DNA of 64,000 nt from NCBI RefSeq assembly GCF_037860835.1, contig NZ_JBBEOG010000004.1:248001-312000 (forward strand). Reading direction: 5' to 3'. Positions 16,810 through 26,322 of this stretch are shown in pieces (positions within the stretch are counted from its first letter, which is position 1; every line of letters begins with the position of its first letter). The notes below the pieces were generated by a model. It did no database searches, had not been told where the DNA came from, and was given only the letters and a program-made list of their open reading frames with translations. The position numbers and the translations under genes are program-made. Source of the DNA: Aquipuribacter nitratireducens. GTDB lineage: Bacteria; Actinomycetota; Actinomycetes; Actinomycetales; JBBAYJ01.

Positions 16810-18059
16810 TGACGCCCGAGGCCCCGGTCCCGCTGTGGGCGCTGCCCGGGGTCCGCCGGCTCGTCGGTGTCACCCTCGCCGGGATGGTCGGCTTCGCGGC
16901 CACCCTCGCGGCGCTGCCGTGGTGGGCGGTGCAGGGCGGGGCGAGCCTCGCGCAGGCGGGGCTGGTGACGACCGCCATGCTGACCGCCACGGTCGTCACG
17001 CAGGCGCTCGTGCCTGCTGTCGTGCGCCGTCTCGGCAACGGCCGGACGCTCGCCCTGGGCCTCGTCGCGCTCGGCGCGCCCGCGCCGCTGTACGCCCTCA
17101 CCGACGACCTCCTCCCGCTGCTGGTGGTGAGTGCCGTCCGGGGGACCGGCTTCGCCGCGCTCACGGTCGTGGGGTCGACGCTCACGTGGACGCTCGCGCC
17201 CCGCGGCCGCCACGGCGAGACGGCCGGGCTGTACGGCCTCGCGGTCGGGCTCGCGTCGGTCGTCGTCGTGCCGGGTGCCGTCGCCCTCGCACAGAACGTC
17301 GCCTTCTGGCCCGTCGCGCTGGTGGCCGCCGCCCCGCTGCTGGGCGTCCGCGCGGCGCTGCGGATGGCGCGGGACGAGCGTGCCGACGCCACGGCACCGG
17401 TCGGTTCGGGTCCGCGCGGCCTGGCGCACCACGGGCGTGCCGTCACCGCCGCGCTCGTCCCGTCCGCCGTCCTGCTGGTCGTCACCCTCGCCGGTGCCGG
17501 GCTCATGACGTTCCTCCCGATCGAGCGACCCGCCGGGGTGCTCGCACCCGTGGCCCTGCTGCTGTTCGGGGCGACCACGGCGGTCGCGCGCTGGCGCGCC
17601 GGGCTCCTCGCCGACCGGCTCGGCACGCGGCTGCTCCTGCCGGCGTCGGCCGTCGTGGGGGCGCTGGGGCTCGCCGGTGTCGGCGGAGCGCTGCTGCTGG
17701 GCGACGGGTGGCGCGCCGGGGCCCTGGTCCTGGTGGCCGCGTTCGTCTGCGGGGTGGGGTACGGCGCGGTGCAGAACCTCACGCTCGTCGCGGCCTTCGC
17801 CCGCGTCGACGGCGCCGACACCCCCACGGCGAGCGCGGTGTGGAACCTCTGCTTCGACGGCGGGACCGCGCTCGGCGCGACCCTCGTCGGCGCCCTCGCC
17901 GGCGCCTCGGTCGGGTGGTCGCTCGCCGGGGCGGGCACCTCGGAGTCCGTCGGCGTGCCCGCGGCCCTCGTCGTGTGCGCGTGCCTCGTCGTGCTCGTGG
18001 CCCCGCTCGGGGCTCAGAGGCCCCAGCCGTCGGGGCGGCCCGCCCACGCCTCGCGGTAG
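16809..18059 (+). CDS. MFS transporter
   Basis: A 416-residue protein with about 12 hydrophobic segments, such as VTLAGMVGFAATLAALPWW and LVPSAVLLVVTLAGAGLM. A basic central loop is near residue 190. It is a major-facilitator protein of the multidrug or sugar-efflux kind. No substrate motif is clear. The GTG start follows a TACCCT -10 box. Its end overlaps the convergent nagB by 46 bases. Proximity to nagB and the nagA fusion allows, but does not show, a link with aminosugar metabolism. Confidence 0.85.
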   Translation: MTPEAPVPLWALPGVRRLVGVTLAGMVGFAATLAALPWWAVQGGASLAQAGLVTTAMLTATVVTQALVPAVVRRLGNGRTLALGLVALGAPAPLYALTDDLLPLLVVSAVRGTGFAALTVVGSTLTWTLAPRGRHGETAGLYGLAVGLASVVVVPGAVALAQNVAFWPVALVAAAPLLGVRAALRMARDERADATAPVGSGPRGLAHHGRAVTAALVPSAVLLVVTLAGAGLMTFLPIERPAGVLAPVALLLFGATTAVARWRAGLLADRLGTRLLLPASAVVGALGLAGVGGALLLGDGWRAGALVLVAAFVCGVGYGAVQNLTLVAAFARVDGADTPTASAVWNLCFDGGTALGATLVGALAGASVGWSLAGAGTSESVGVPAALVVCACLVVLVAPLGAQRPQPSGRPAHASR

Positions 18060-18793
18060 TACCCCGCGAGCTGCAGCCGGGCGGCGGCGGCCTCGTCGAC
18101 GAGGACGCTCACGTGCGGGTGCAGCTGCAGCGCCGTCGCCGGCCACAGCGCGCTGACCGCGCCCTCCACCATCTGGTGGACGGCCTCCGCCTTCGCCCGG
18201 CCGGTCGCGAGGAGGACGAGGTGGCGGGCGGCGAGGATGGTCCCGATCCCCTGCGTGAGGACGTGCCGCGGCACGGCGTCCGGGTCGTCGTCGAAGAAGC
18301 GGGCGTTGTCGTGCCGGGTCTGCGCGGTGAGGGTCTTCACGCGCGTGCGGGAGGCGAGGGAGGAGCCCGGCTCGTTGAAGGCGAGGTGACCGTCGGTGCC
18401 GATACCGAGCACCTGCAGGTCGACGCCGCCCGCGTCGGCGATCGCGGCCTCGTACGCGGCGGCCGCGGCGGGCAGGTCGTCCGCGGTGCCGTCGGGCACG
18501 TGGAGGGCGTCGGCGGGCAGGTCGAGGCGGGCGACGACCTCCCGCGTCAGGACGGAGCGGTACGACTGCGGGTGCCCGGCCGGGAGCCCGACGTACTCGT
18601 CGAGGGAGAACGCCCGCACGCGCGCGAACGACAGCCCCCGCTCGTGGCGGCGGACGAGCTCGTCGTAGAGGCCGAGGGGGCTCGAGCCGGTCGCGAGCCC
18701 GAGGACGGCGTCGGGTCGCCGGGCGAGGAGCTCCTCGACCGCGTCGGCGGCCGTCCGGGCCAGCTCCTCGGCCGGGGCGATGACGACCTGCAC
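18014..18793 (-). CDS. nagB: Glucosamine-6-phosphate deaminase
   Basis: A 259-residue cytosolic enzyme that converts glucosamine-6-phosphate to fructose-6-phosphate and ammonia. Visible motifs are GLATGSSPLGLYDEL for phosphate binding, SLDEYVGL and GIGTDGHLAFNEPG with catalytic Asp and His. The length is typical of the family. It is divergent from the nagA-hexosaminidase gene, 56 bases away, so the two probably share a control region. The C-terminal codons overlap the MFS gene on the other strand. Confidence 0.95.
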   Translation of the reverse strand: MQVVIAPAEELARTAADAVEELLARRPDAVLGLATGSSPLGLYDELVRRHERGLSFARVRAFSLDEYVGLPAGHPQSYRSVLTREVVARLDLPADALHVPDGTADDLPAAAAAYEAAIADAGGVDLQVLGIGTDGHLAFNEPGSSLASRTRVKTLTAQTRHDNARFFDDDPDAVPRHVLTQGIGTILAARHLVLLATGRAKAEAVHQMVEGAVSALWPATALQLHPHVSVLVDEAAAARLQLAGYYREAWAGRPDGWGL

Positions 18794-18849: not shown

Positions 18850-21555
18850 GTGACCGTACCCGTGCGCGTCCTCCGCGGTGCCGTCGTGCTGCCCGACGCC
18901 GTGCTGCCCGACGGCGTCGTCGTGGTCGACGGCGACCGGGTGGTGTGGGTCGGCGCCGCCGACGAGGCGCCCGTCGCGCTGCCGGACCCTGCCGACGTCG
19001 TCCTGCTGCCCGGGCTCGTCGACGTCCACTGCCACGGCGGGGGCGGGGTCGGGTTCCCCGACGCCGCCTCGGTGGACGACGCCCGCCGGGCGGTCGCCGA
19101 GCACACCCGTCACGGCACGACGTCGCTCGTCGCCTCGCTCGTCACCGCGCCCGCCGACCTGCTCCTCACCCAGGCGGCGATGCTCGCCGACCTCGCCGAC
19201 GACGGTGAGATCGTCGGGGTGCACGCCGAGGGCCCGTTCCTGTCCGCCGCCCGGTGCGGCGCCCAGGACCCGGCGCACCTCGTGCCGGGTGACGCCGACC
19301 TCGTGCGCGCCCTGGCCGACGCCGCCCGGGGACACCTCGTGAGCATGACCGTGGCGCCGGAGGTGCCGGGCGTGCTCGACGAGGACGGTGTCGTGGACGC
19401 GCTGGTCGCGGCCGGGGCGCTCGTGTCGTTCGGTCACACGGACGCCTCGGCGGAGCTGGTGGACGACGCCGTCGCGACCGCGTTCGGGCTGTCGGGGCGA
19501 CGTCCGGGTGTCACGCACCTGTTCAACGGGATGCGGCCGTGGCACCACCGCGACCCCGGCCCCGTCGCCGCGTGCCTGGCGGCAGCCGCCCGTGGGGACG
19601 CCGTCGTCGAGCTCGTCGCCGACGGGGTGCACCTCGCCGACGCGACCGTGCGGAGCGTCTTCGACCTCGTCGCCCCCGACGCCGTCGTGCTCGTGACGGA
19701 CGCCATGGCCGCAGCCGGGGTGCCGGACGGGGACTACGTCCTCGGCGGGCAGGCGGTGCGCGTCGCGGACGGCGCCGCGCGGCTCGCGGCCGGCGCGCAG
19801 GCGGACGCGCTCGCCGGCGGGACCGCGCACCTGCTCGACGTCGTCCGGCAGGCCGTGACGGCAGGCGTCCCCCTCGTCGACGCCGTCCGGGCCGCGGCCA
19901 CGACACCGGTTGCCCTGCTCGGTCTCGACGACGTCGGGGCGCTGGAGGCCGGGCGGCGGGCCGATGTCGTCGTGTGCTCGCCCGACCTGCGACCGCTGCA
20001 CGTGCTCCGGGGCGGGGTACCGGTGCCCGGGGTCGCGGGCCGAGGCGTGCTCGACGTCGGTCTCGTCCCCCTGCCGGCGTCGGTCCTGCCGGGTGGAGGT
20101 GCGCCCGTCGTCGTCGGTGCCTCGACGCGGCTGGTCGCGACCGGCGCGGCACGGGAGGTGGCCGCCGTCGCGGCCGACCGCCTCGCGCGGACGCTCGGCT
20201 CCGTCCCGGCCGTGGTCGAGGGGCCGGCCCGGCCGGGCGACCTCGAGCTCGTCCTCTCACCGGACGCCGTCCGTGCGCTCGGCGAGCCGGCCGTCGACGT
20301 CGCGGACGAGGGCTACGACCTCGCCGTCGGCGAGGGACGCGTCGTCGTGTCCGCGCGGGCGGTCCCCGGCCTGCGCCACGGGCTCACGACGCTCGGACAG
20401 CTCCTCGCCGCCGCCCCGCCCGAGGGCGGGGGACGGGCGCTCGCGCCCGTCACCGTCACCGACGCCCCGCGGTACCCGTGGCGCGGGCTGAGCCTCGACG
20501 TCGCGCGTCACCCGCTGCCGCTGCCGGACCTGCTGCGGGTCGTCGACGTGCTCACGGACCTGCGGCTCAACGTCCTCCACCTCCACCTCACCGACGACCA
20601 GGGCTGGCGGCTCCACGTGCCCTCGCGCCCGCTGCTCACCGAGCGCTCCGGCGGGACCGCCGTCGACGGCGACCCCGGGGGCTTCCTCACGGGGGCCGAC
20701 TGGGCGGCACTGGTCGCGCACGCCCGCGGGCGCGGTGTCACGGTCGTGCCGGAGGTCGACGTCCCCGGCCACACCAACGCCGCCCTCCACGCGTACGGCG
20801 AGCTGACGCCGGACGGGCAGGCACCGCCCGCCTACACGGGGACCGAGGTCGGCTTCAGCCGGCTGTGGGCGGACGTGCCGGCCACCGAGCCGTTCCTGCG
20901 GGACGTCTTCGCCGACGTCGCCCGCATGACCCCCGGCTCCCCGCTCCACATCGGCGGGGACGAGGTCCTCGCCATGGACCCCGAGGAGTACGTGCGGCTC
21001 GTGCAGATGGCCGCCGCGGCCGTCGAGGCGCAGGACCGCACCGTCGTCGCGTGGCAGGAGGCCGCAGCCGCGCCGCTGCCGCCCGGCACGGTCGTCCAGC
21101 TGTGGGACGAGCGGCAGGACACCGGCCCGCTCGTCGCGGCCGCCGAGGCCGGAGCGGAGGTGCTGCTGTCCCCGGCGAGTCGCGTGTACCTCGACATGAA
21201 GTACGACGCCGACTTCCCGCTCGGTCTCGACTGGGCCGGTCTCGTGCCCTTCCGTCGCTCGTGGGAGTGGGACCCGGACGACCTCGTGCCGGGCCTGCCG
21301 CCCGAGCACGTCGTCGGGGTCGAGGCGGCCCTGTGGTCGGAGACCACCCGCTCGCTCGACGACGTGACGACACTGCTGCTGCCACGGCTCGCCGCTGTCG
21401 CCGAGGTCGCGTGGTCGGCGCAGGCGCGCCGCGACGACGACGGGTTCGACGGCTTCGCCCACCGTGTGCGTGTGCTGGCGCGGGCGTGGGAGCGGGACGG
21501 ACTGCGGTGGTACCGGGCGCCGGACGGGGTGTGGGACGGCGAGGACCCGGGGTGA
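18850..21555 (+). CDS. nagA: Fusion of N-acetylglucosamine-6-phosphate deacetylase and GH20 beta-hexosaminidase
   Basis: One open frame of 901 residues. Residues 1-400 are a complete NagA: metal site VHCHGGGG (His60, His62), EGPF (Glu127), GHTDAS (His196), THLFNGM, DGVH and the catalytic Asp in TDAMAAAG (284). Residues 402-540 resemble the GH20b accessory domain, and 543-860 a GH20 barrel: WRGLSLDVAR, HLHLTDDQGWRLH, VPEVDVPGHTNA and the catalytic pair in HIGGDE (Asp704, Glu705), then YLDMKY and ALWSETT. There is no signal peptide, so the hexosaminidase acts in the cytosol. The chain would free GlcNAc from chitobiose-like sugars and deacetylate GlcNAc-6-phosphate; the kinase between these steps is not in the window. 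The GTG start is the first in the frame after nagB. Confidence 0.93.
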   Translation: MTVPVRVLRGAVVLPDAVLPDGVVVVDGDRVVWVGAADEAPVALPDPADVVLLPGLVDVHCHGGGGVGFPDAASVDDARRAVAEHTRHGTTSLVASLVTAPADLLLTQAAMLADLADDGEIVGVHAEGPFLSAARCGAQDPAHLVPGDADLVRALADAARGHLVSMTVAPEVPGVLDEDGVVDALVAAGALVSFGHTDASAELVDDAVATAFGLSGRRPGVTHLFNGMRPWHHRDPGPVAACLAAAARGDAVVELVADGVHLADATVRSVFDLVAPDAVVLVTDAMAAAGVPDGDYVLGGQAVRVADGAARLAAGAQADALAGGTAHLLDVVRQAVTAGVPLVDAVRAAATTPVALLGLDDVGALEAGRRADVVVCSPDLRPLHVLRGGVPVPGVAGRGVLDVGLVPLPASVLPGGGAPVVVGASTRLVATGAAREVAAVAADRLARTLGSVPAVVEGPARPGDLELVLSPDAVRALGEPAVDVADEGYDLAVGEGRVVVSARAVPGLRHGLTTLGQLLAAAPPEGGGRALAPVTVTDAPRYPWRGLSLDVARHPLPLPDLLRVVDVLTDLRLNVLHLHLTDDQGWRLHVPSRPLLTERSGGTAVDGDPGGFLTGADWAALVAHARGRGVTVVPEVDVPGHTNAALHAYGELTPDGQAPPAYTGTEVGFSRLWADVPATEPFLRDVFADVARMTPGSPLHIGGDEVLAMDPEEYVRLVQMAAAAVEAQDRTVVAWQEAAAAPLPPGTVVQLWDERQDTGPLVAAAEAGAEVLLSPASRVYLDMKYDADFPLGLDWAGLVPFRRSWEWDPDDLVPGLPPEHVVGVEAALWSETTRSLDDVTTLLLPRLAAVAEVAWSAQARRDDDGFDGFAHRVRVLARAWERDGLRWYRAPDGVWDGEDPG

Positions 21556-21836
21556 CGCGTCGGGCCGGTGGCGCTGAGCGCCGCGCGTGAGGGCGCTGCC
21601 GGCACGGCTACCGACCGGACGTCATCGATCATGACGGTTGTCACGAGCGGGCGGGCCGACCCCCGCCCCCGCGCGGGCGGTCCCAGTCACCGGAGGCGGG
21701 GTACCCCGCGCCGTCGACGACGGCGGCGACCAGCACGAGGGCCGGGCTGAGGAGGCCACCGCCCGCGACCGTCACCAGCCCGGTTACGGACCCGCGACCC
21801 TGGGCTTCCACAGCCTCGGTGTGGAGCCGGCGGGAG
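21556..21836. other. Intergenic region between the nagA fusion and tRNA-Phe
   Basis: No convincing gene. It contains a perfect 14-bp palindrome GCGGGGTACCCCGC at 21696-21709 and a short inverted repeat (GTCAT, 5 bases, ATGAC) near 21618-21632. Neither can be tied to a regulator. An open frame here on the plus strand runs antisense into the tRNA and is judged spurious. Confidence 0.4.
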
Positions 21837-22053: not shown

Positions 22054-22123
22054 TGCATCGCGGGGTTGCGATGACGAGGTGCCACCCCGCGCGGCTCGGC
22101 CTCCGACGACGAAGGTGGGTGCG

Positions 22124-23344
22124 ATGCGCCTCGAGGACGGCCACGGACACCTCACGTACTCCACGCTCGTTCACCCCGGGGACGACTGGTCGCAGATGTG
22201 GCACAGCCTGACGACCCACGTCCCGGCGGTGAGGGACGCCGTGGCAGCGGCGGGCCCGTTCGGCGTGAGCCTGCGCCTCTCGGGCGCCTCGGTCGACACG
22301 CTCCGCGACGAGCCGGACGAGGTCGAGCGCCTCGCCGGCTTCCTCGCCGAGCAGCGGCTGTACCTCTTCACCGTCAACGCCTTCCCCCACGGTCCCTTCA
22401 AGGGTCGCCGTGTGATGGAGGAGGTGTACCGCCCGGACTGGAGCACCTCGACCCGCGTCGGCTACACGAAGGACATCGCCGACCTGCTGGCGCGAATCGC
22501 GCCGGCCGACGTCCGCCCGAGCATCCAGTCCGCGCCGCTGGCGTTCCGCGCAGACGTGGGTTCTGCCGAGGTCGTGCAGCGGCTCACGGACAACGTGCTC
22601 GACGTGGTCGCGCACCTCGCCGACCTCGAGCGCCGGACCGGCCGGTGCGTGACGCTCGCGCTCGAGCCGGAGCCCGCCTGCTACCTCGAGACGACCGAGG
22701 AGACGGTCCGCTGGTTCGAGGACCACGTGTACTCCCGGCAGGGCCTGACGGCGCTGGCCGCACGGGCCGGCGTCCCCGTCTCCGAGGCCACCGACCTCGT
22801 CCGCCGCCACCTCGGCGTCGTCTTCGACATCTGCCACCAGACGGTCGGCTTCGAGGACGTCCCCGAGTCCCTCGACCTGCTCGTGCGCAGCGGTGTGCCG
22901 ATCCTCAAGCTCCAGGAGGCCGCGGCGCTGCGCGCACCGGAGGTCGACGCGGACGTCGTCGCCGAGCTCGAGCGCTTCACCGACACCATCTACCTGAGCC
23001 AGACGACGGAGCTCCGCGACGGCGCCACCCGGCGCTTCCTCACCCTCGCCGACGCCATCGACGCCTGGCGGGAGGACCCCGGAGGGGCGCGAGAGTGGCG
23101 CACCCACTTCCACGTGCCGGTCTTCCTCGACGACCTCGGCGCCTTCGGGACCACACGGTTCGGCATCGAGCAGGCCCTCGGCGTGCACGCCCGCACGCCG
23201 CTGTCCTCGCACCTGGAGATCGAGACGTACACGTGGGACGTCCTTCCTCCGCACCTCAAGACCGGTGACGTCGACTCGTACGTCGTCAGAGAGCTGCAGT
23301 GGGTCAGGGAGCGGCTCGCCGCCGCTTCTCCGGCCCGGACCTGA
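22124..23344 (+). CDS. EboE-like TIM-barrel protein (sugar-phosphate isomerase/epimerase superfamily)
   Basis: A 406-residue protein. The ATG at 22124 has GAAGGTGGG upstream and gives MRLEDGHGHLTYSTLVHPGD. The text matches the EboE pattern closely: LTY.T..HPG near the N-terminus, FTVNAFPHGPFKG, APLAFR, ALEPEPACYLET, VVFDICHQ, HFHVPVFLDDLGAFGTT and LEIETYTWDVLPP. The Glu, Asp and His residues fit a metal-dependent isomerase or epimerase barrel. EboE normally sits in an ebo operon of metabolite-transport genes; here it heads a sugar-import and catabolic island without the other ebo genes. The exact reaction is unknown. Confidence 0.85.
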   Translation: MRLEDGHGHLTYSTLVHPGDDWSQMWHSLTTHVPAVRDAVAAAGPFGVSLRLSGASVDTLRDEPDEVERLAGFLAEQRLYLFTVNAFPHGPFKGRRVMEEVYRPDWSTSTRVGYTKDIADLLARIAPADVRPSIQSAPLAFRADVGSAEVVQRLTDNVLDVVAHLADLERRTGRCVTLALEPEPACYLETTEETVRWFEDHVYSRQGLTALAARAGVPVSEATDLVRRHLGVVFDICHQTVGFEDVPESLDLLVRSGVPILKLQEAAALRAPEVDADVVAELERFTDTIYLSQTTELRDGATRRFLTLADAIDAWREDPGGAREWRTHFHVPVFLDDLGAFGTTRFGIEQALGVHARTPLSSHLEIETYTWDVLPPHLKTGDVDSYVVRELQWVRERLAAASPART

Positions 23345-23356
23345 GAGGAGACACCA

Positions 23357-24145
23357 GTGACTGGTCGACTCGACGGCAGGACCGTCGTCGTCACGGGCGC
23401 CGGCAGCGGCATGGGGCGCGCCTTCGCCGGTGCCTTCGTCGCCGAGGGCGCCGTCGTCGGCGTCCTCGACCGCAGCGAGGACCTCGCGCGAGCCGCGTGC
23501 GACGACCTGGACCGAGAGCACCCGGGAAGGAGCGTCCCCCTGGTCGCGGACGTCCGCCGCCGGGAGGAGGTCGCAGCGGCGTTCGACCGGTTCCTCGACG
23601 CAGCAGGCGGCTTGGACGTCCTGTTCAACAACGCCGGCGTGAACCGCCCGATGCATCTCCTCGACGTCACCGAGGAGAACTGGCACCTGATCATGGACGT
23701 CAACGCCCTCGGGACCCTGATCGGCATCCAGGAAGGCGCGCGGCGGATGATCCCCAGGGGTGGCGGCAAGATCGTCAACACGTCCTCGATGGCCGGTCGC
23801 CAGGGCTTCCCCAGTTTCGCGCCGTACTGCGCGAGCAAGTTCGCGGTGAACGCGCTCACGCAGGCGGCGGCGCGCGGGCTCGCCGAGCACGACATCACCG
23901 TCAACTCCTTCTCGCCCGGCGTCGTCGACACCCCGCTGTGGACCGCGCTGGACGCCGACCTCGTCGCCATCGGCGACGCCGACGAGCCCGGCCGCGCGAT
24001 GGCGGCGTTCGCGGAGGGCATCCTGAGGGGCAGGCCCGCGACCCCCGACGACATCGTCGGCACCGCGCTGTACCTCGCCTCCTCCGACAGCGACTACCTG
24101 ACCGGACAGACGATCATGATCGACGGGGGCATGGTCCTGCTCTGA
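23357..24145 (+). CDS. Short-chain dehydrogenase, acetoin reductase / 2,3-butanediol dehydrogenase-like
   Basis: A 262-residue classical SDR in the cytosol. The GTG at 23357 follows GAGAGGAGA. The cofactor motif is TGAGSGMG with Asp after the second strand (GVLDRS), which favours NAD. Then come NNAGVN, the catalytic Ser (NTSSMAG) and YCASK, and the end GQTIMIDGGMV. The lines FAPYCASKFAVNALTQAAAR and GVVDTPLW resemble meso-butanediol and polyol dehydrogenases. It probably oxidises a secondary alcohol of the imported compound. It follows the EboE-like gene by 12 bases. Confidence 0.85.
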   Translation: MTGRLDGRTVVVTGAGSGMGRAFAGAFVAEGAVVGVLDRSEDLARAACDDLDREHPGRSVPLVADVRRREEVAAAFDRFLDAAGGLDVLFNNAGVNRPMHLLDVTEENWHLIMDVNALGTLIGIQEGARRMIPRGGGKIVNTSSMAGRQGFPSFAPYCASKFAVNALTQAAARGLAEHDITVNSFSPGVVDTPLWTALDADLVAIGDADEPGRAMAAFAEGILRGRPATPDDIVGTALYLASSDSDYLTGQTIMIDGGMVLL

Positions 24146-25180: not shown

Positions 25181-25212
25181 CAGTTGTGAACACCTGATTA
25201 GGCTTGTACAGT
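25181..25212 (+). promoter_or_regulatory. Promoter and imperfect operator ahead of the ABC importer
   Basis: TTGTGA at 25184-25189, 17 bases, then TACAGT at 25207-25212. An imperfect 16-bp palindrome at 25181-25196, CAGTTGTGAACACCTG (12 of 16 positions symmetric), covers the -35. The permease gene begins 64 bases downstream with a strong GAGGAGG site. This divides the island into two transcription units. Confidence 0.55.
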
Positions 25213-25275
25213 CCTGCCGAACAGCGAGACAGGGTGCCGACGGAGGCGCCCGCTCAGTGCCACGAGGAGGTGGAC

Positions 25276-26322
25276 GTGAGCGCTCCCGCTCAGACCCGCG
25301 ATCCCGAGAACGCGTCCGGCGCGCGCCGGCCGCGCTGGCCGTCGGTCTCCCGCGGGCTCGCGACGATCAGCGTCGCCCTCGTCGCCCTCCTCGTCGTGAG
25401 CGCCGTCGTGGCCCCGTCGAGCGTGAGCCGCGGGGCCCTCCTCGGCATGCTCCCCTTCGCCGCGGTGCTCGCCGTCGTCGCCCTCGGTCAGACGCTGGTC
25501 GTCCAGCAGGGGGGCTTCGACCTGTCGGTCCCCGGCGCGGTGTCCCTCGCCGTCGTCGTCGTCACGCACCAGCCGAACGGCGACGACTCGCGCCTCCCCC
25601 TCGCCATCCTCACCGCCCTCGGCTTCGCGATCGCGGCCGGGCTGGTCAACGGGTTCCTCGTGAGCCGCCTGCGGCTCAACCCCATCGTCGCCACGCTCGG
25701 CATGAGCGCGCTGCTGTACGCCGTGGTCCTCGCGATCAGCTCCGGTGCCCCCCGCCGGACCACCGACCTGCTGGCGGACCTCACCGGCGGCATCACCGCG
25801 GGCGTCCCCCACGCGGTCCTCATCGCCGTCGTCGTCGTCGCCGTCACGACGACGGCCATGAAGTCGACGGTCGCCGGCCGCGAGTTCGAGGCGGTGGGCG
25901 CCAGCGCCCCCGCGGCGCACGCGACGGGCCTGCCGGTCGTGCGTCGACGGGCCTCGGCGTACCTGTGGGCGCAGGTCCTGTACTGCATCGCCGGGATCAT
26001 GCTCGCCGGCATCGTCGCCCAGCCCACCGCCTTCCAGGGCGACGCGTACCTGTTGCCGTCCGTGGCCGCGGTCGTCCTCGGCGGGACGTCGCTGCTCGGC
26101 GGCCGGGGCTACCTCGTCGCGACGGCGGTCGCCGCGCTGTTCCTCAGCCAGCTGCAGCAGTTCGTCCTCGCGCTCGGTGTCAGCTTCGCGATCCGCACCA
26201 TCGTCGAGGCCGCGGCCCTGGGCCTCGGGGTGGCCCTGTTCACCGTCGACTGGACATCGGTCCGCCGGCGGCTCTCCTCCCTCCTGCCCGCCCGGTCCGG
26301 CGCACCCGCGACCGGCCCCTGA
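25276..26322 (+). CDS. CUT2-type (ribose/xylose class) ABC permease
   Basis: A 348-residue inner-membrane protein with about ten hydrophobic segments. The GTG at 25276 follows GAGGAGG. Family signs are GQTLVVQQGGFDLSVPGA near residue 75, LVNGFLVSRLRLNPIVATLG and VLGGTSLLGGRGY. It should form a heterodimeric pore with the permease half of the fused protein at 27646. The family imports pentoses, hexoses, polyols and autoinducers; the actual substrate is unknown. Confidence 0.9.
   Translation: MSAPAQTRDPENASGARRPRWPSVSRGLATISVALVALLVVSAVVAPSSVSRGALLGMLPFAAVLAVVALGQTLVVQQGGFDLSVPGAVSLAVVVVTHQPNGDDSRLPLAILTALGFAIAAGLVNGFLVSRLRLNPIVATLGMSALLYAVVLAISSGAPRRTTDLLADLTGGITAGVPHAVLIAVVVVAVTTTAMKSTVAGREFEAVGASAPAAHATGLPVVRRRASAYLWAQVLYCIAGIMLAGIVAQPTAFQGDAYLLPSVAAVVLGGTSLLGGRGYLVATAVAALFLSQLQQFVLALGVSFAIRTIVEAAALGLGVALFTVDWTSVRRRLSSLLPARSGAPATGP

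Follow-up and report, generated by a model that had tools for sequence, protein, structure and literature searches.

A nagA-GH20 hexosaminidase gene fusion, probably real and most likely formed by loss of a stop codon, in Aquipuribacter nitratireducens

The window analysed here, a 64,000-nt stretch of a contig of Aquipuribacter nitratireducens, contains a single open frame that encodes NagA (about residues 1-395), a short linker, and a GH20 β-N-acetylhexosaminidase (about residues 403-897). We propose, with a probability of about 0.72, that nagA and the gene for a cytosolic GH20 of the SpHex type are joined end to end in a real fusion specific to this lineage, that the fusion originated by stop loss, and that the halves act independently in a route of GlcNAc use. 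Both halves are familiar enzymes, and the biochemistry of the fusion is expected to be ordinary; what is new is the domain order. The features are as follows.

18014-18793, minus strand: nagB, glucosamine-6-phosphate deaminase, with TIGR00502 and NF001684 matches above cut-off
18850-21555, plus strand: nagA-GH20 fusion gene, GTG start, 901 residues in one open frame, with Pfam, NCBIfam, and PDB matches to both halves
18850-20034, plus strand: NagA module, residues 1-395, with metal-site residues H60, H62, E127, H196, and H223, catalytic D284, and conserved R234 and H261
20035-20055, plus strand: junction, with R398 (CGA, 20041-20043) and V400 (GTG, 20047-20049); linker 397-409 predicted to be disordered
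20056-21540, plus strand: GH20 module, residues 403-897, with catalytic D704 and E705 and pocket residues R553, D582, H641, W735, W752, Y780, D782, and W829

A sequence-only reading of this DNA had described an unbroken frame with the active-site residues of both enzymes, and this description holds: 18850-21555 reads through as 901 amino acids, and H60, H62, E127, H196, H223, D284, D704, and E705 were all found at the positions named. Pfam places Amidohydro_1 at residues 51-389, Glyco_hydro_20b at 404-539, and Glyco_hydro_20 at 542-857 of the protein. The protein is without a secretion signal, and its gene starts 56 nt from the divergent nagB (TIGR00502, 270 bits, cut-off 236.9; NF001684, 383 bits, cut-off 326); the sequence and the gene layout thus uphold the earlier description of a cytosolic protein, lacking a signal, beside nagB. 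The fusion is the only NagA and the only GH20 detected in its own genome (3.83 Mb, 98.95% complete), and the gene is internal to a 404-kb contig.

The NagA half is predicted to be a GlcNAc-6-phosphate deacetylase. Its best match among solved structures is 6fv3 (E 3.4e-57, residues 17-395), with which it shares the sequence family, the metal-site residues including the HxH motif, the catalytic Asp, and the HHRDPG loop. At E ≤ 1e-30, it matches five distinct PDB sequences, each of which bears the name N-acetylglucosamine-6-phosphate deacetylase. The amidohydrolase domain carries H60, H62, E127, H196, and H223 together with D284, the set by which we assigned it to NagA, and the metal-site residues, D284, R234, and H261 are conserved in 22-23 of 23 relatives. 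The module alone scores 204.6 bits against TIGR00221, below the equivalog cut-off of 225.65. Four stand-alone NagA relatives from the same order, all that were tested, also fall below it (173-215 bits), so the cut-off appears to be too strict for this clade.

The GH20 half is predicted, from its sequence, to be a β-N-acetylhexosaminidase of the SpHex type. The best solved matches are 4c7d (E 4e-102) and 1hp4 (E 6e-100), both of this type, and the two Pfam domains score well above their cut-offs (Glyco_hydro_20, 230.0 bits against 22.3; Glyco_hydro_20b, 49.9 bits against 26.1), as expected of a GH20 enzyme. Like these SpHex-type enzymes, the fusion has the GH20b and GH20 catalytic domains, the Asp-Glu pair, and every pocket residue that was checked; D704, E705, R553, D582, H641, W735, W752, Y780, D782, and W829 are conserved in 22-23 of 23 relatives. 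We take the pocket residues to be the counterparts of those of SpHex, from alignment to the solved proteins and general knowledge of that enzyme; with this matching, the catalytic pair and the substrate-pocket residues of SpHex are all present. In contrast to 1hp4 and 4c7d, the GH20 half is without a secretion signal and is placed behind NagA. In many stand-alone GH20 homologues of the order, no more than about 5 residues precede the domain, leaving no room for a signal peptide. Thus, of the earlier remark that a cytosolic bifunctional enzyme would be unusual, the part about the fusion stands, whereas a cytosolic GH20 is normal in this order.

In the mechanism that we propose, the GH20 half would release GlcNAc from small β-GlcNAc-glycosides taken up by the cell, a separate kinase, presumably of the ROK family, would phosphorylate it, the NagA half would deacetylate the resulting GlcNAc-6-phosphate, and NagB, from the divergent neighbouring gene, would convert glucosamine-6-phosphate to fructose-6-phosphate. 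For Streptomyces, it is established that (GlcNAc)2 is hydrolysed in the cytosol and that NagK, NagA, and NagB then act in turn, as outlined in PMC6167110. That DasABC-DasD-NagK-NagA-NagB route for diacetylchitobiose resembles our proposal in its order of cytosolic GlcNAc release, kinase, NagA, and NagB. It differs in that the hydrolase DasD and NagA are, in the same outline (PMC6167110), separate proteins, whereas hydrolase and NagA form one chain in the fusion.

The loci of relatives point to the same kind of catabolism. In a sister species (genome G002), a ROK regulator, an SBP_bac_1 binding protein, two BPD_transp_1 permeases, and a ROK kinase are divergent from nagA and GH20. Cellulomonas marina has GH20 divergent from the same set of regulator, binding protein, permeases, and kinase, followed by nagB, and Microbacterium has GH20-nagA near nagB, a ROK kinase, and permeases. 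Because the sister species and the other relatives group GH20, NagA, NagB, ROK regulator, ROK kinase, and ABC importer in this way, catabolism of imported amino-sugar oligosaccharides, with GlcNAc-oligosaccharides broken down in the cytosol, is the likely function of such loci.

The fusion locus differs from that of the sister species in that the importer, ROK regulator, and ROK kinase are missing from the window and a divergent nagB is present instead. The 19 kb of G002 that the analysis covered showed no nagB. Instead of the full set of importer, kinase, NagA, NagB, and hydrolase, the window has nagB as the sole companion of the fusion. This layout could have come from a combination of the G002 and C. 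marina layouts by deletion of five genes between nagA and nagB. On the other side of the fusion gene, an EboE match (NF035939, 391 bits, cut-off 250) lies at 22106-23344 on the plus strand, followed by a short-chain dehydrogenase at 23357-24145, a helix-turn-helix/cupin-like regulator at about 24.3-25.1 kb, and a ribose-type ABC permease at 25204-26322.

Import genes had been suggested as a check; no dedicated importer was found in the host genome. The ABC importer set is present in relatives; in the host genome, the best match to the G002 binding protein has 33% identity over about 190 residues, which is no close homologue, and no PTS EIIC was found. An NgcE-type chitobiose binding protein gave only matches below cut-off in the host genome, and no GH18 chitinase was found there. 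Two ROK proteins of the host pass the cut-off of the glucokinase family, and no ROK protein of the host reaches the GlcNAc-kinase cut-off; to judge from sequence, either of the two could supply the kinase step. We also considered GH3 NagZ as a source of GlcNAc. The two GH3 proteins of the host resemble the β-xylosidase and β-glucosidase/arabinopyranosidase families, and this candidate was rejected.

It had been suggested that the enzyme might serve cell-wall recycling, with the GH20 half freeing GlcNAc from imported peptidoglycan fragments and the NagA half returning GlcNAc-6-phosphate. In favour of this reading, neither a GH18 chitinase nor a PTS EIIC was detected in the host genome, which also lacks a close homologue of the G002 importer. 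Furthermore, since the two GH3 proteins are xylosidase/glucosidase-like rather than NagZ-like, the GH20 could be the only cytosolic enzyme that releases GlcNAc. However, the homologous loci are accompanied by an ABC sugar importer, ROK kinase, ROK regulator, and NagB, not by wall-recycling genes, and the nearest relatives with known structures are exo-hexosaminidases of the SpHex type. The suggestion found no positive support in these neighbourhoods, and we consider it unlikely.

What, if anything, is gained by joining the two enzymes? The AlphaFold2 model, made with 47 aligned sequences, has a mean pLDDT of 89.7 and a pTM of 0.61; pLDDT is mostly >90 in the NagA half and falls below 50 for residues 397-409. 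The model thus predicts two clearly folded domains connected by a flexible linker, with no confident mutual arrangement, which suggests independent catalysis, most likely at a fixed 1:1 stoichiometry. The fused activities are the first and third steps of the pathway, and the kinase is not in the chain. Because the kinase step falls between the two activities, there can be no direct handover from one half to the other, and simple channelling is not the explanation. We suggest that the fusion is most likely neutral or nearly so.

If the fusion itself were advantageous, the benefit would lie in the proximity of pathway steps or in co-assembly with the kinase. The two halves are functionally linked, and the NG86 dN/dS values against G002 show that both are constrained: about 0.35 for nagA (0.209/0.603) and about 0.34 for GH20 (0.220/0.648). 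However, the intervening kinase step does not allow direct channelling, the linker is predicted to be disordered, the pTM is only 0.61, and the fusion is found in one species only, so that selection for a bifunctional enzyme is improbable. Just as improbable, in our estimate, is an adaptive tether of GH20 to NagA, for example an oligomeric NagA core, ringed by GH20 modules, that recruits the separate kinase, with the dedicated importer lost and GlcNAc drawn from a source other than chitin.

The preferred history, the loss of a stop codon, is read from the comparison with G002. There, nagA and GH20 are separate genes in the same order and relative orientation as in the fusion, with 71-72% identity, next to the importer, ROK regulator, and ROK kinase. 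The last bases of the G002 nagA are ...GCGTGA, and the GTG that opens GH20 lies within them, giving a 4-nt stop/start overlap, GTGA. Across the junction, the homologous stretches of the window and G002 differ by 2 nt (87 against 89). Stand-alone NagA proteins end 22-28 residues past the ADVVV motif, which predicts an end at residues 392-398 of the fusion, where the fusion instead continues into a C-terminal GH20 enzyme. In several stand-alone GH20 proteins, only about 2-5 residues come before the domain, which predicts a start near residue 400. The window has CGA at codon 398 and GTG at codon 400. Because these two codons are where NagA would be expected to end and GH20 to begin, the simplest history is a substitution of TGA by CGA at codon 398. 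The nagA stop would have been lost just before an in-frame GH20 start, with GH20 already in frame from codon 400, two codons past the former stop. A stop-codon substitution at codon 398 is thus the most likely origin of the fusion. Elsewhere in the G002 NagA (L114 11513-12900), an Asp/Thr-rich insertion, DDDADDADDTDDTDDAADAADD, stands just before the ALAGGTAH motif and is missing from the window protein.

Could the fusion be an artefact, two separate genes joined in the assembly by a wrong base? G002 has nagA and GH20 separate, no second fusion was found in the genomes searched, and one miscalled base at codon 398 (CGA for TGA) would suffice to mimic a fusion. However, there are very few positions at which a miscall could have this effect, the contig is long (404 kb), and the assembly is good (98.95% complete); a base indel, the commoner type of error, would not hide two properly ended genes. 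The codon-position pattern of G+C is unbroken over the junction, with 0.80-1.0 at the third position and lower values at the second. The fusion is probably real, and we regard the artefact as very unlikely. Separate genes in relatives had been named as a possible sign of an assembly error; the separation was found, as overlapping genes in G002, whereas the error was not, and the difference is explained by a local fusion of operon partners. A read-level frameshift at the junction, also raised earlier, is rejected for a single-base indel: of the other two forward frames, one is free of stops from 19856 to 20489 and the other from 19290 to 21588, so neither has a stop near the junction, and one indel cannot hide a normal gene pair, since the next stops, at 20489 or 21588, are hundreds of bases inside GH20.

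The same domain order was sought in other genomes, as had been proposed. No second fused frame was found in samples of the order (297 genomes), class (395), and phylum (396), which overlap slightly and together comprise about 1,090 genome entries; the class and phylum results are those among the matches listed at strict E-values. None was found among the 80 closest genome_contigs loci. The plasmid records gave no fusion either; in none of them does a single locus span 80% of the query. Rare fusions elsewhere may be missed among the class, phylum, and genome_contigs matches listed. No title or abstract returned by a literature search points to a NagA-GH20 fusion. The genus has a third species (G001) in which nagA is cut off by the end of a contig near residue 174 (L115 1-504), and no GH20 match was found in this 99%-complete genome; its broken locus neither supports nor refutes the fusion.

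In relatives from Microbacterium and Agromyces, the two genes also adjoin or overlap, but in the reverse order, GH20 first. In seven Microbacteriaceae loci (L028, L041, L042, L047, L048, L051, and L061), GH20 stands directly before nagA in adjacent or overlapping frames. This is an independent pairing of the two genes.

The nagA-GH20 fusion, found in a single species, is thus apparently of recent date, a gene fusion caught near its birth: G002 keeps genes that overlap by 4 nt, and the species of the window reads one protein. It also links a cytosolic GH20 with NagA and NagB in this bacterial order. The amino-sugar pathway to which it belongs exists in relatives without the joined enzyme, and the fusion provides a compact test case of whether fusions between operon partners are selected or neutral.
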